Source: an uncultured Verrucomicrobiota bacterium (GTDB lineage: Bacteria; Verrucomicrobiota; Kiritimatiellia; RFP12; UBA1067). From it: DNA of 45,256 nt. Where the stretch lies: positions 1-45,256 of the forward strand of contig CAMOCC010000016.1 in NCBI GenBank assembly GCA_946610035.1, given 5' to 3'. Of this stretch, positions 1,517-7,027 are shown piece after piece (position 1 is the stretch's first letter; each line of letters starts with the position of its first letter). The translations under genes were made by a program, and so were the position numbers. The notes beneath the pieces are model-generated. The model was not told the DNA's origin, made no database searches, and saw only the letters and a program-made list of their open reading frames with translations.

Positions 1517-3733
1517 TCAGTGATGTCCTCGCTTGATGATTATTGCGAGGACGGCTACATCGGCGGGGTTGACGCCTGGAATGCGGCCCGCCTGTCCAAG
1601 GGTCTCGGGGCGGAACCTTTTCAGTTTCTCCCGGCTCTCGTACCTGACTGCCGGACACTTGTCGTAGTCCAGCCATGCAGGTATGACAACCGCCTCGTCC
1701 CTCTTCGCCCTTTCCGCCGCCTCAAGCTCCTGCCTTATGTATGGTGCGTAATGTCGCATAATCCTTAATTCTTCCTCAATGTCCTTTCTTGAGAAAAATT
1801 GCAAGGGGCGATCAGATTCTTTATCATCGACTTTTGTTTCTACCTTCTCGGCTAACGCTCCTACAGACCGATCATTTCCAAAGCCATGATTCTCGAATTC
1901 TTTCAGGAATTCGGACACCAACTTATCCGGTTCATCCTTTGTTTCCACGTTCTTCTCAAGAAATTCAGATACTATCCTCGTCTCTTCTATCTGACGCTTC
2001 GAAACTATTTCCACCTTTTCAGCTGCATCAAGTAGTCTGAATCTTGCATTGTCCTGCCTCAGTATCAGCCGCCTTTCAGCCCTGCTTGTAAATATGCGAT
2101 ATGGTTCATCCGTTCCCTTAGTCACCAGATCGTCTATCATCACACCTATATAGGCATCCTGTCGACTGAGAACCAACGGCTTTTCTTTTCGGACGCTTAA
2201 TGCCGCATTGATTCCTGCAATAATTCCCTGAGCGGCCGCCTCTTCATATCCCGTCGTACCGTTGATCTGTCCGGCAAAATACAAACCCGATACTCTCTTC
2301 GATTCCAATGTATGCTTCAACTCACGCGAATCTATGCCGTCGTATTCTATCGCGTATGCGTATGCAAGAAACTCCGCATTTTCCAATCCCGGCACAGAAT
2401 GAACCATCCGCTCCTGCACGTCACGCGGTAGGCAGCAACTTAATCCGTTTGGATAAATGATATTACCTTCTGAATCCTCCGGCTCAAGCATTACATGATG
2501 GTGCTGCGCATCCTTGAATCTAACTATTTTGTCCTCTATGGACGGACAATACCTCACACCAGTAGCATGAATTGAACCACCATACAAGGCAGATTTATCA
2601 AGGTTGCCTCGTATTATATCATGAGTTTCTGGCGTTGTATATGTCAACCAACAGGGATACTCGGGCAGATTATTATTTTCAACGCTTGAATTGTTCCACG
2701 TGGAACAAAATTCGCCATTTTCCGAGTGTTCCACGTGGAACATTTTAGTATTAAATCTATTGTCGTTCTGTGAAAAGTGTTCCACGTGGAACATTTGCTG
2801 TAAACCAGCTTTGCTACTAGTAGATTGTTCCACGTGGAACAATGGGCGCGGATTCTCTCCGTCTTGACGCTGACACTTGGTAAAATCACAGGAAGCAGCC
2901 TTCAAGCGAGGTGGAGTACCTGTCTTCAGTCTAATTAGATCAAAACCGAGACGAATAAGTGCGTTTGAAAGCTCGTTTACAGCCGGGCGTCCGTCTCCTC
3001 CGCTTTCCTCGGACTCCTTGCCAATCCAGATTTTGCCGCGCAAGGTTGTCCCTGATGTGATGACAACAGCTTTAGCTAAATATCGATTACCAGATGATGT
3101 AACCACACCATGGCAAACTAAATTGCCTTGTGAAAGCGTCATACTGGTATATCTATCTTTACTCAAGCAATCACATTGACATATCGTAGAATTTCTTGGT
3201 GTATTCTGATTCTGCCTTGGTTCAACAATTAAAGGGGAAGTGAGGGTAATACTATCACTTGATGTTGCAGAATCAGATGAAATTACTTTATCATTGTTCT
3301 TGCCATCCTCATGTGTCGTCGAGTTTACGACTGAATGATCGTCTACAATCAAATCTACAACAGCTTCTTCCACTACAGAAAGGTTGGGTTGATTCGCAAC
3401 AACATACTGCATACGCTCGGTGTATTCACGTTTGGCGCACTGTGTACGGGTAGCGCGGACGGCGGGTCCGCGACTTGAATTGAGAGTCTTGGACTGAAGG
3501 GCCGTCGCATCCGCATTGCGTCCCATCTCCCCGCCGAGAGCGTCAAGCTCGTAGACAAGGTGACTCTTGGCGAGTCCGCCTATGGACGGATTGCACGGCA
3601 TTCTGGCGATTGCGTCCTTTCTGGCGGTGACGAGAAGGGTGTTAAGACCCATGCGGGCAGAGGCTAGGGCCGCTTCGGACCCGGCGTGTCCGCCTCCTAC
3701 AACTATCACTTCAAAACTGTTGTCTCTTTTCAT
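1517..3733 (-). CDS. mnmG: tRNA uridine-5-carboxymethylaminomethyl modification enzyme MnmG (GidA), with insertions
   Basis: 738 aa against the usual roughly 620-630. MnmG with MnmE installs the cmnm5/nm5 group at U34 of certain tRNAs, using FAD and methylene-THF. Visible hallmarks are the FAD loop GGGHAG (13-18), NPSIGG (48-53), KTGTPPR (270-276), [41 protein letters not shown] and the C-terminal GQAGRIPGV. Three stretches are extra relative to E. coli MnmG: about residues 135-205 (Ser/Thr/Asn-rich), about 299-352 (three FHVE[QH] and one CSTWN, encoded by four parS palindromes) and a charged expansion in the C-terminal helical region. All are in frame and the conserved motifs are intact, so the enzyme is probably functional. 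The inserts are visibly AT-richer than the rest. It is divergent from dnaA across the candidate oriC and appears leaderless. Confidence 0.96.
2692..2707. promoter_or_regulatory. parS: parS site 1
   Basis: Perfect TGTTCCACGTGGAACA. In mnmG it is translated in the frame giving CSTWN (residues 343-347). Confidence 0.88.
2727..2742. promoter_or_regulatory. parS: parS site 2
   Basis: Perfect TGTTCCACGTGGAACA, translated in mnmG as FHVEH. Confidence 0.88.
2778..2793. promoter_or_regulatory. parS: parS site 3
   Basis: Perfect TGTTCCACGTGGAACA, translated in mnmG as FHVEH. Confidence 0.88.
2826..2841. promoter_or_regulatory. parS: parS site 4
   Basis: Perfect TGTTCCACGTGGAACA, translated in mnmG as FHVEQ (residues 299-303). 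Confidence 0.88.
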
Positions 3734-3743
3734 TTCAAGGCAG

Positions 3744-3773
3744 ATTATACCAAATTATCTACTGATTTGTGAA
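3744..3773 (-). promoter_or_regulatory. mnmG promoter (leaderless geometry)
   Basis: Minus-strand TATAAT (3749-3744) lies 10 nt before the ATG at 3733, and TTCACA (3773-3768) is an 18-nt-spaced -35. No Shine-Dalgarno is present between them and the start. Confidence 0.65.
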
Positions 3774-3999
3774 CAAAAAAATATGTATGGTTATTAGTCA
3801 ATGATATTTGCATAAAAATACAAAAAACTCAATAAATTCGCTAAAAATTGATTGTTAGCAATGTGTGTCAATGAATAATTTATCAAATGATATTTACACT
3901 TATCTAAAAGTTATCAACATAGTAGATAACTTAATGAAATTTAGCAAAAACCGCTCATTTATACTTTTAAGACTAAAAACGGCACGAAGCGGCCCAATT

Positions 4000-4055
4000 G
4001 ATGTGGCAAGGACGACTCGGTCTTGCTGCAAGGGCGAGGGCACCCTTGCCACATC
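4000..4055. repeat. Dispersed hairpin repeat, copy A (in candidate oriC)
   Basis: Arms GATGTGGCAAGG (4000-4011) and CCTTGCCACATC (4044-4055) are perfect reverse complements of 12 bp. Positions 4003-4026 match 29793-29816 at 21 of 24 bases, so this is a related copy of the element at 29793-29908. Its GC content contrasts with the AT-rich gap around it. Confidence 0.75.
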
Positions 4056-4187
4056 ATCGGCATTGGTGGAAGGGCACTTGCCACAACTCAAAACTAATAC
4101 TGCTATTTCTTATAACTGTCTAGGTGTTGTTAAAAGTTATCTACATAAAATGTTGATAAGTTGAAAATATCCGTTTATATGTGTCTA

Positions 4188-4217
4188 TTGCAGAAGCGGA
4201 CCAAACTATGGTATTAT
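4188..4217 (+). promoter_or_regulatory. Putative dnaA promoter
   Basis: TTGCAG (4188-4193) and TATTAT (4212-4217) are separated by 18 nt. Predicted initiation near 4224 gives a leader of about 25 nt to ATG 4249. A reversed TTATCAACA at 4151-4159 lies just upstream, suggesting DnaA autoregulation. Confidence 0.45.
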
Positions 4218-4248
4218 TATGTTCCATAATTTCGCAAAAGACAAAACA

Positions 4249-5679
4249 ATGAGCAACGACACAATAGACATAGCTTCGAAGGAGTTGTGGGAAAGGGCGA
4301 AGACCATATACCTTTCCACACTCTTCAACGAGCAGGAGAAGAGTCAAGCCGAAAATTACTTCTCCATGATCACTTCAGTGTCTGTCGAAGGCAACGTCTT
4401 CCTCGTCAGGGCCACAAACAAGTTCGCCGCCGATTTTCTTCGCGACAAATATGCAGGAAAACTGAAGAGCGCACTCGACCTTGCGGGCGGTGACAAGGAG
4501 CAGGTGATTGAATTCAAGGAAGATGAGCGCTCACGGCCTGCAATCATCGTTCCTACATACGAACCCAAGCCCCAGCCTCAGTACCAGTCCTACGCTCCCA
4601 CGCCGGCAAAGCCCAATCAATACATATCGACTCTGCCGCTTGAGGAAAACTACACATTCGAGGAATTCGTACAGGGAGCATCTAACAGCTGGGCGTATGC
4701 AGCCGCGAAAGGCGTCGCAAAGCATCCGGGTCTAAAGAACTCCAATCCGCTTTTCATTCACGGCGGAACCGGCCTTGGAAAGACACACTTGATGCAGGCG
4801 ATAGGCAACGACCTCAGGAAGACGAATCCGCAGATGTCCATATGCTATCTCACTGCTGAAACATTCCTTAATGAATACATCAACTCCCTGCAGACGAAGG
4901 ACATGTCCGTCTTCAGGGAGAAATACAGAAACTTCGACGTATTGCTGGTGGACGACATACAGTTCCTCCAGAAGGGAAAGCAGTGTCAGGAAGAGTTCTT
5001 CAACACCTTCAACTACCTCACCACAAACCACAAGCAGATAGTGATGACGTCCGATGTGGCCCCAAAGAACCTTCCGGCCCTCGAGGAAAGGCTCATCTCA
5101 CGTTTTGAAGGCGGAATGGTGCAGGAGATCGAAGCTCCCGGATACGAGACGCGACTCGCCATCCTTCAGAAGAAGGCTGAGGGGATGACACCTTCCGTAC
5201 CTCTTTCCACCCTTCAGTTCCTGGCGGAGAACATCAAGAGCCATGTCAGGGCCATAGAAGGAGCCCTTGCCAAGGTGCACGTCACAATGCAGATCAATCC
5301 TACTCAGGAGCTGACGCCGGAATTCCTCGCATTCCTTCTCAAGGACGTGATAGAGAAGGAACAGTCCATGCGCAACATAACTCTGCGCGAAATACAGGAA
5401 AGGGTCGCAAGGAAGTACGGCGTCACTGTTAAGCAGATACTTTCTGCGGACCGCACGCAGTCCCTTGTGACGCCTCGCCAGCTTGCCATGTACATTTCAA
5501 GGAAGTACTCAAACAAGAGTCTTCAGGAAATATCGAAGGAGTTCGACAAGAAGCACGCGACGATAATACACGGTGTGAAGACAATACAGAACAGGCTTGA
5601 CGTCGACGCCAACCTCAAGAACGTCCTGGAGGAAATTCTCCATGAATTCGGCTATAAAATCACGGACAACCAGGAGTGA
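4249..5679 (+). CDS. dnaA: Chromosomal replication initiator protein DnaA
   Basis: 476 aa from ATG 4249; an in-frame ATG at 4219 would add 10 residues but overlaps the proposed -10 region. DnaA binds boxes in oriC as an ATP form, oligomerises and melts the origin. Domain I is residues 1-90, followed by a Pro/Gln-rich linker and the AAA+ domain with Walker A GGTGLGKTH (172-180) and Walker B LLVDDIQFL (Asp235-Asp236). The C-terminal helix-turn-helix includes TPRQLAMYISRKY and SLQEISKEF. The family signature normally reads GGRDHTTV; here it is DKKHATII (433-440), changing the Asp and the first Thr that contact bases in E. coli DnaA while keeping the His and second Thr. This coincides with local boxes mostly reading TTATCAACA. 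No clear Shine-Dalgarno precedes the start. Confidence 0.97.
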   Translation: MSNDTIDIASKELWERAKTIYLSTLFNEQEKSQAENYFSMITSVSVEGNVFLVRATNKFAADFLRDKYAGKLKSALDLAGGDKEQVIEFKEDERSRPAIIVPTYEPKPQPQYQSYAPTPAKPNQYISTLPLEENYTFEEFVQGASNSWAYAAAKGVAKHPGLKNSNPLFIHGGTGLGKTHLMQAIGNDLRKTNPQMSICYLTAETFLNEYINSLQTKDMSVFREKYRNFDVLLVDDIQFLQKGKQCQEEFFNTFNYLTTNHKQIVMTSDVAPKNLPALEERLISRFEGGMVQEIEAPGYETRLAILQKKAEGMTPSVPLSTLQFLAENIKSHVRAIEGALAKVHVTMQINPTQELTPEFLAFLLKDVIEKEQSMRNITLREIQERVARKYGVTVKQILSADRTQSLVTPRQLAMYISRKYSNKSLQEISKEFDKKHATIIHGVKTIQNRLDVDANLKNVLEEILHEFGYKITDNQE

Positions 5680-5929: not shown

Positions 5930-7027
5930 ATGAAGTTCAACATCATACGATCCAAGTTCCTCGACGGGTTGAAGGCCGTGCAGAACGTTGTCGCCGGAAA
6001 AGGGTCCCTCGCAGTCCTCCAGAACGTGCTGATCGAGGCGAACGGACACGAATTGAAGATGACCACTACCGACCTAGACCTTTCGATAACATGCACGGTC
6101 GAGTGTACTGTAGTGGAACAGGGTGCAACCACTCTTCCGGTGAAGCTTCTCTTCAACGCAGTCGCCAAGGCTGCTGAGGGTGAGGTGGAGGTGAGCGTTG
6201 ATGCCACGGACGTCGCCGCCATATCGGCTGCATCCGCCCGCTTCCGCATTACCGGTCTTGGAGAGAAGAACTTCCCGCGTCCGCCCGAGGACGAGGAGGC
6301 GTACGGATACAAGATTCCTTGCCAGACGTTCAAGGAGATGATAAGGAAGGTGGCCTACGCGGCCTCCCAGGACGACACGCGCCGCGCTCTCAGGGGTGTT
6401 CTCATCAGCTTCAAGGACCAGAAGCTTACCATGGTCGCTACCGACGGACGCCGCATGGCGCTTGTCGAGAACGAAATGGAGTTTCCCAAGGAGGCCGAGA
6501 GGGACATCGTCCTTCCCGCGAAGGCAGTCCAGGAGATTCAGCGCTCCCTCGGGTCAGGAGAGGAAAACATAAACCTCAAGGTTTGCAAGAGCCAGATATG
6601 CTTCGAGTTCGGCAACATAATGATCTACTCGAAAATGGTGTCCGAAAACTACCCCAACTACATCCAGGTCATTCCGAAGGAATGCCGCGAGAAGGTTGTT
6701 GTAGACAGGCAGCTGCTCCTCGACGCTCTCGACAGGGCGAGCGTCATGACTATGGACGAGGCGCATTCGACGAAGCTCATTTTTGACTCCAACAAGCTTA
6801 CGGTGACGTCGGCGGCGAGCGAGATCGGGTCCGCAAGCGACGAAGTGCCGATCAAGTACGTTGGAGAGAGGCTTGAGATAATGTTCAATCCCTCGTACAT
6901 GATGGATCCGCTTAAGGCGATCGACGACGACGAGGTGAAGATCGAGCTGATTGACGGACACTCTCCGGCGGTCATCAGGTGCTCCATACCGTTCCTGTAC
7001 GTGCTAATGCCCCTCAGGACGAACTGA
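5930..7027 (+). CDS. dnaN: DNA polymerase III beta subunit (sliding clamp)
   Basis: 365 aa, the usual length. The dimeric ring tethers replicative polymerase and other clamp-binding proteins to DNA. The sequence shows the three repeated clamp folds: the start MKFNIIRSKFLDGLKAVQNVV, the middle domain with SQDDTRRALRGVL and MVATDGRRMAL, and the C-terminal end FLYVLMPLRTN matching the canonical YVLMPMR tail that lines the protein-binding pocket. The start ATG follows an AAAAGGAG ribosome site at the usual distance. It lies immediately downstream of dnaA, the classical dnaA-dnaN order, and has its own upstream region with DnaA-box-like sequences. Confidence 0.97.
   Translation: MKFNIIRSKFLDGLKAVQNVVAGKGSLAVLQNVLIEANGHELKMTTTDLDLSITCTVECTVVEQGATTLPVKLLFNAVAKAAEGEVEVSVDATDVAAISAASARFRITGLGEKNFPRPPEDEEAYGYKIPCQTFKEMIRKVAYAASQDDTRRALRGVLISFKDQKLTMVATDGRRMALVENEMEFPKEAERDIVLPAKAVQEIQRSLGSGEENINLKVCKSQICFEFGNIMIYSKMVSENYPNYIQVIPKECREKVVVDRQLLLDALDRASVMTMDEAHSTKLIFDSNKLTVTSAASEIGSASDEVPIKYVGERLEIMFNPSYMMDPLKAIDDDEVKIELIDGHSPAVIRCSIPFLYVLMPLRTN

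Follow-up and report, generated by a model that had tools for sequence, protein, structure and literature searches.

Candidate chromosomal parS sites within the mnmG gene of an uncultured Verrucomicrobiota bacterium and its relatives

Four palindromes inside mnmG, next to dnaA

Why should a conserved enzyme gene carry, within its coding sequence and a short distance from dnaA, four identical copies of a palindrome resembling a chromosomal partition site? The question is raised by a stretch of 45,256 nucleotides (hereafter the window) from an uncultured Verrucomicrobiota bacterium (assembly GCA_946610035.1, contig CAMOCC010000016.1). The host gene, mnmG (gidA), occupies positions 1517..3733 of the minus strand and encodes a protein of 738 aa, identified by a TIGR00136 score of 716 bits for a curated cut-off of 525; the KTGTPxR and RYCPSIEDK motifs were invariant in 10 out of 10 aligned MnmG sequences. 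Among its close relatives are MnmG proteins named Kiritimatiellae RGIG6720 and Lentisphaerae SIG88, and a more distant one is named Verrucomicrobia; on these names, the class is read as probably Kiritimatiellia and the phylum as probably Verrucomicrobiota. A pattern scan of the window detected four exact copies of TGTTCCACGTGGAACA, at 2692..2707 (site 1), 2727..2742 (site 2), 2778..2793 (site 3) and 2826..2841 (site 4), all within the open and conserved mnmG frame. Read on the minus strand, site 1 encodes CSTWN, sites 2 and 3 encode FHVEH and site 4 encodes FHVEQ, the TTC codon of the latter being that of the near-invariant residue F299 of MnmG. The scan and the translation agreed with the first-pass annotation, which had described four perfect parS sites inside this gene, three of them read as FHVE[QH] and one as CSTWN. 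We take the 16-bp palindrome to be the parS of ParABS systems, the consensus used being TGTTNCACGTGNAACA.

When up to three mismatches were allowed, no match to TGTTCCACGTGGAACA beyond these four was found in the window. Shuffled versions of the window contained 0.12 copies on average and four copies were reached in 0 of 100 shuffles. The 3.03-Mb draft genome of the bacterium (191 contigs, 88% complete; the missing part may hold more) contains TGTTCCACGTGGAACA four times, always in mnmG, and the reversed control pattern gave 0 matches in it. A chance origin, or the expansion of low-complexity repeats by slippage, has a negligible probability in our view. Regular in-frame repeats, spaced by 66, 66, 66 and 60 in the related genome G051 and by 39 and 39 in G050, would suit slippage, but the start-to-start spacings in the window are 35, 51 and 48, with spacers unlike in sequence and in length, and both the shuffles and the absence of any copy elsewhere in the draft speak against chance.

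The gene dnaA (4219..5679, plus strand; TIGR00362, 458 bits) is divergent from mnmG and dnaN is found at 5930..7027 on the plus strand (TIGR00663). The gap between mnmG and dnaA (3734..4218) is AT-rich, with GTTATCAACA-like repeats, and constitutes a candidate oriC; a perfect 13-nt inverted repeat, TGATGTGGCAAGG, is also present in it at 3999-4056. The four sites are located 1.4-1.5 kb from the start of dnaA. With the origin placed by dnaA, they would be clustered near the replication origin and rare elsewhere in the draft, and the whole-genome scan indeed confined the motif to this one place adjoining dnaA, in keeping with what the first-pass annotation had supposed. The ParB gene that it had also supposed was found in the same genome as a single TIGR00180 match (180 bits), together with a ParA/Soj-like gene (PF13614, 192 bits) in an ORF containing KGGVGKTT. 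The locus is thus similar to known chromosomal parS of ParABS systems in its 16-bp palindrome, in the clustering beside dnaA and in a genome that encodes ParB and a ParA-like protein. It differs from them in that all the sites found lie in the coding sequence of one enzyme and in that parB is on another contig, which yielded no match when searched for the ParA family. The ParA-like gene does not share a contig with parB (L126 G000:C5:46000-58000; L302 G000:C3), so that parA and parB are split. We regard the four sites as real chromosomal parS that look functional.

Placement of the sites in relatives and length of the host loop

mnmG was found in 79 of the 114 genomes of the family (match at E 1e-60), and 76 of these 79 genes carry the site, either exact (72) or with one mismatch (4), the other three being cut by contig ends. 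The 74 family genomes that have mnmG and at least one exact site, wherever located, contain 174 such sites, of which 170 are within mnmG. Two of the four others are downstream of mnmG in G023 and two are beside an extra ParB in G014; the mnmG of each of these genomes carries a one-mismatch site. Five family genomes have mnmG and yet no exact site anywhere: in three of them the gene is truncated by the end of a contig, and in G043 and G082 it contains one-mismatch versions of the site. The second ParB of G014 (L124, G014:C173:3500-9500) is adjoined by two copies of TGTTTCACGTGAAACA, separate from the TGTTCCACATGGAACA sites in the mnmG of that genome. The 35 family genomes without an mnmG match comprise 32 without an exact site and 3 with an isolated one. 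One contig (L115, G049:C38:1) begins exactly at a parS copy. Because of this contig start and of the 35 genomes without an mnmG match, we consider that repeated parS may break assemblies and leave origins absent from drafts.

Beyond the family, the motif was present in 176 of 240 genomes of a class sample and in 151 of 288 genomes of a phylum sample, both of which include the family genomes. Sites were inside mnmG in 30 of the 30 loci listed for other families of the class, and an exact site was inside mnmG in 41 of 44 further order, class and phylum loci (L208-L251), that is 71 of 74 class and phylum loci beyond the family, all chosen for having the motif; these counts, like all the others on relatives, are raw and ignore kinship. 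The three exceptions are L237 (an asymmetric match, without mnmG), L249 (no mnmG near) and L250, where an exact site is found just upstream of the mnmG match and a one-mismatch site inside it.

In the alignment of MnmG proteins, 307 of the 316 sites that could be placed, with one mismatch allowed, fall between F299 and C361. In the window, the loop delimited by these two residues covers 2651..2839 on the minus strand. It is an insertion when aligned with the MnmG of E. coli and Aquifex, and in this comparison the in-frame insertion that the first-pass annotation had described as lacking in orthologues is confirmed. The description fails for the relatives in the family, class and phylum, much of which share the loop: the 76 site-bearing family genes have the site there or nearby, and likewise the 30 listed class loci. 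Only site 4 overlaps a conserved residue, F299, so that this site is not wholly inserted sequence; it probably marks the ancestral parS position. An AlphaFold2 model of MnmG, built on 10 sequences (mean pLDDT 71), gave pLDDT values below 50 for residues 303-355, as would fit a disordered excursion. Because pLDDT also drops under 50 in other segments, including some in conserved regions (386-396, 543-557), and the model relies on 10 sequences, we regard this low value as weak evidence of disorder.

Loop length, measured between alignment anchors in 71 of the 79 family MnmG (proteins with X were dropped; G049, G102, G020, G023, G041, G106, G112 and G012, which do not have both loop anchors, were left out), tended to rise with site number (Spearman 0.57, n=71, p 1.7e-7). 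Median lengths were 23 aa with one site, 56.5 aa with two, 109 aa with three and 136 aa with four, and the loop of the window, with four sites, has 61 aa. Outside the family, two-site genes have a median loop of 47.5 aa (n=46), one-site genomes beyond the class have loops of 29-32 aa (n=10), and 9 of 14 site-free genes have loops of 13-21 aa, the other five measuring 31, 40, 69, 94 and 107 aa; the two longest belong to the class genomes G269 and G292 and contain no recognisable site. The link between length and copy number is a loose one: a longer loop helps two sites to fit and is not required for it, because 9 of the 42 family genes with two sites make do with a loop of 18-27 aa, a length not above that of some site-free loops.

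The order of the genes around the origin varies within the family. mnmG and dnaA diverge from each other in 6 of the 79 genomes (the window, G050, G051, G090, G107 and G111), and mnmG is followed by a co-directional dnaA in 26; no dnaA was present in the stretch in 31 genomes and the stretch was too short in 16. The two arrangements reflect a rearrangement beside the origin, and the sites remain inside mnmG despite the changed orientation relative to dnaA. These observations bear on the possibility that the palindromes are real parS which reached mnmG by passive drift, parS often lying beside gidA near oriC, either because a gene border moved or because a site arose inside the gene. We give this possibility a probability a little below even. 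Four named relatives that belong to other phyla (L069-L072) have a pair of parS or one-mismatch sites immediately upstream of mnmG; in an Oscillospiraceae bacterium (L075), an exact parS lies inside mnmG at a different place, near codon 508, with a second one downstream; nine of the ten parS of Pseudomonas aeruginosa are predicted within coding sequences, according to the portion of PMC4368675 consulted; and a loop of 18 aa already has room for two sites. Passive drift accounts less readily for the occupation of the same loop across many families in spite of the change in mnmG orientation. The shared position argues for long retention and not for an advantage of the intragenic placement. Passive drift concerns the origin of the sites and is compatible with their being a centromere.

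Selection on the DNA word and joint changes with ParB

The palindrome is free of stop codons in every frame, and the exact canonical sites of the family are distributed over all three frames (82, 42 and 13 sites). Where the peptide FHVE occurs in family proteins, it is encoded by TTC-CAC-GTG-GAA in 83 of 88 cases for 2.0 expected from codon usage, in a set of genes fetched irrespective of parS and with kinship ignored. Synonymous destruction of the DNA word under an unchanged peptide, which the first-pass annotation had named as an observation that would count against it, was absent from these 83 peptides and was seen in the other five (three in G082, one in G064 and one in G096), each of which differs by one synonymous base. 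In a small number of genomes, G082 and G174 among them, the palindrome is no longer perfect owing to a synonymous base, with the peptide kept. G082 carries the same variant four times, three times in one orientation and once reverse-complemented, where it reads as a different peptide. In sister lineages, the unrelated peptides VSTWK or CATWH stand at the same place and are encoded by other palindromes.

Because three frames are used and the exact parS codons are so much in excess of expectation, selection appears to act on the DNA, and the statement of the first-pass annotation that it does so and not on the peptide was upheld. It is very improbable that the motif is kept for its peptide, with FHVE[HQ] or the loop being part of MnmG function. 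A single frame, frame 1, accounts for 99 of the 119 exact sites outside the family (named loci included), and site 4 includes the near-invariant F299, both of which would suit such a role; the majority of one frame leaves room for some peptide preference at the ancestral position. Against a role of the peptide stand the use of all three frames, the exact codons, the unrelated peptides of the sister lineages and the short loops, of just 13-21 aa, in most site-free genes outside the family.

The palindromes and the ParB proteins of the same genomes were compared at residues 162, 178 and 181, numbered by alignment to the GKxR motif of Caulobacter ParB, after removal of three distant or extra copies (G030x, G014b and G014c). 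A ParB with Q, N and R at these positions (QNR) was associated with the TGTT-type palindrome in 49 of 49 genomes with a readable site (46 exact, 3 with one mismatch). One genus (g15) carries GTTTCCACGTGGAAAC or TGTGCCACGTGGCACA at this place in the mnmG loop, as does one neighbour, G005, for which the search gave no ParB. The ParBs of g15 differ from the rest either by QR to YG at 162 and 181 or by N to H at 178; YNG was found with GTTTCCACGTGGAAAC in 6 of 6 genomes and QHR with the TGTGCCACGTGGCACA type in 3 of 3, one of them with one mismatch. On the tree, the switch of palindrome and ParB requires two changes, the minimum, i.e. two events within one clade, this single genus. The passages available from PMC7383237 describe Q162 and N178 as parS contacts conserved between ParB and Noc, and residue 181 is absent from the contacts named in them. 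The situation recalls the ParB-to-Noc specificity switch reported there, in which DNA-contact residues likewise change together with a new palindrome. It differs in the residues and the sites, R173, T179, A184 and G201 with NBS in the part of that report considered, Q162Y with R181G, or N178H, with two other palindromes here. Because contact residues and palindromes switch together in the sister lineages, the sites of the window are very probably recognised by the ParB of their own genome.

ParB and the sites also tend to be present or absent together over the phylum. Beyond the class, 21 genomes with mnmG in hand were compared at a threshold of E 1e-15, which more divergent ParB could escape. 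A ParB match was obtained in 13 of the 13 genomes with an mnmG site (exact or with one mismatch) and in 1 of the 8 without, the exception being G410, whose ParB is divergent; conversely, the 7 genomes without a ParB match are all without a site in mnmG (7 of 7). Six further phylum genomes without exact parS gave no ParB match either at the same threshold. The ParBs read from beyond the class are QNR in 16 of 17, G410, which has no site in mnmG, being again the exception. Besides the 21 genomes compared, ParB was found in G328, whose parS is in a stretch free of long ORFs, and in G409 and G436, neither of which has an exact parS. Joint absence may reflect the loss of both partners or lineages that never had the system. 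G349 (L253), whose reduced genome of 0.9 Mb gave no ParB match, still has a decayed parS in the MnmG loop, TGCTTCACGTGAAACC, read as FHVKQ.

We finally considered whether the palindromes act in the mnmG mRNA, where copies would pair and thereby control translation or decay. The 171-nt stretch folds at -68.9 kcal/mol for a shuffle mean of -34.6 (z -8.4), but self-complementary repeats necessarily fold in this way, in many genomes the only site has no partner to pair with, and RNA pairing explains neither the joint switch with ParB residues nor the absence of sites where the search gave no ParB. As the main function, we hold this to be a highly improbable explanation; as a side effect, mRNA pairing could coexist with a parS role. 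Conservation driven by the peptide, chance and mRNA structure as the main role were all rejected, on the basis of the frames, the codons, the shuffles and the co-switch with ParB.

A proposed intragenic centromere and its history

In ParABS systems, ParB bound to parS closes into a CTP clamp, which then slides away from the site and brings in ParA and SMC. We propose with high confidence that this bacterium has its origin-proximal chromosomal centromere in the four palindromes, with the following workings and history. ParB dimers would bind the four palindromes and load there as CTP clamps. From this loading point, 1.4-1.5 kb from the dnaA start, the clamps would slide across mnmG as well as the dnaA/oriC region, and ParB would then recruit ParA, along with SMC, so that the new origins are moved apart. 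In an ancestor, one parS would have sat in, or entered, the variable surface loop that follows the KTGTPxR motif. The sites would lie inside mnmG because this ancestral parS was in a variable loop where the palindrome creates no stop in any frame. Further copies would have been added in the loop, often with in-frame growth that the enzyme appears to tolerate, and duplication is a plausible way of adding them. We infer the order of these events, as well as the toleration of the loop owing to its disorder and the use of all four copies. In the data, the centromere proposal has its basis in the position of the sites, their exclusivity in the draft, their conservation, the loop-length trend, the selection at the DNA level and the co-switching with ParB; clamp loading, sliding and segregation would operate here by analogy with established ParABS knowledge. 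Against the proposal weigh the looseness of the relation between loop length and copy number, the two parS-free insertions elsewhere in this MnmG, the weakness of the structure model, the palindromes broken by a synonymous base, the prevalence of one frame outside the family, the presence of a ParB in G410 with a site-free mnmG, and the limitation of the ParB/palindrome switch to two events.

A further proposal, which we put forward tentatively and consider less likely than not, is that the mnmG of the phylum has become a dedicated centromere gene: parS could not be lost without touching the gene, would have been carried through inversions near oriC, and the protein would have been re-coded at each change of the ParB/parS code. 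In a stronger, purely hypothetical form, ParB loading might also tune mnmG expression and link tRNA modification to origin segregation; the coupling to mnmG transcription put forward in the first-pass annotation is likewise a hypothesis.

Intragenic parS as such are already known from the portions of PMC4368675 and PMC9040568 consulted. The P. aeruginosa sites of the former are similar to ours as centromere sites inside genes and compatible with coding; the present case differs from what is described there by a single host gene, the same loop over the phylum and a loop length that tends to rise with copy number. In alphaproteobacterial plasmids, parS occur in or near repABC modules, and the authors of PMC9040568, in the passages at hand, hypothesize a positive selection of extra parS even within coding sequences; those replicons are plasmids and the genes belong to the partition module or are incoming, whereas the host here is a conserved housekeeping enzyme. 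Among the literature matches listed, the titles and the beginnings of abstracts contained no description of parS inside mnmG/gidA, nor of a centromere kept phylum-wide in one enzyme loop and re-coded with ParB changes. Over the class and much of the phylum, the locus would represent a protein shaped by a centromere, in that the loop sequence follows the type of parS and the loop length tends to follow their number. The two natural switches of ParB/parS specificity, in which mnmG itself again hosts the new site, allow the evolution of a centromere code to be tested directly on purified proteins. In uncultured genomes of the Verrucomicrobiota type, the sites provide a practical handle for locating the origin and the centromere.

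The MnmG of the window contains two further insertions without parS, at about 1790-1972 (residues ~588-648) and 3113-3334 (residues ~134-207). The middle of the gene (about 1650-3450) has a GC content of 0.34-0.50, most of the flanking coding sequence being near 0.6.
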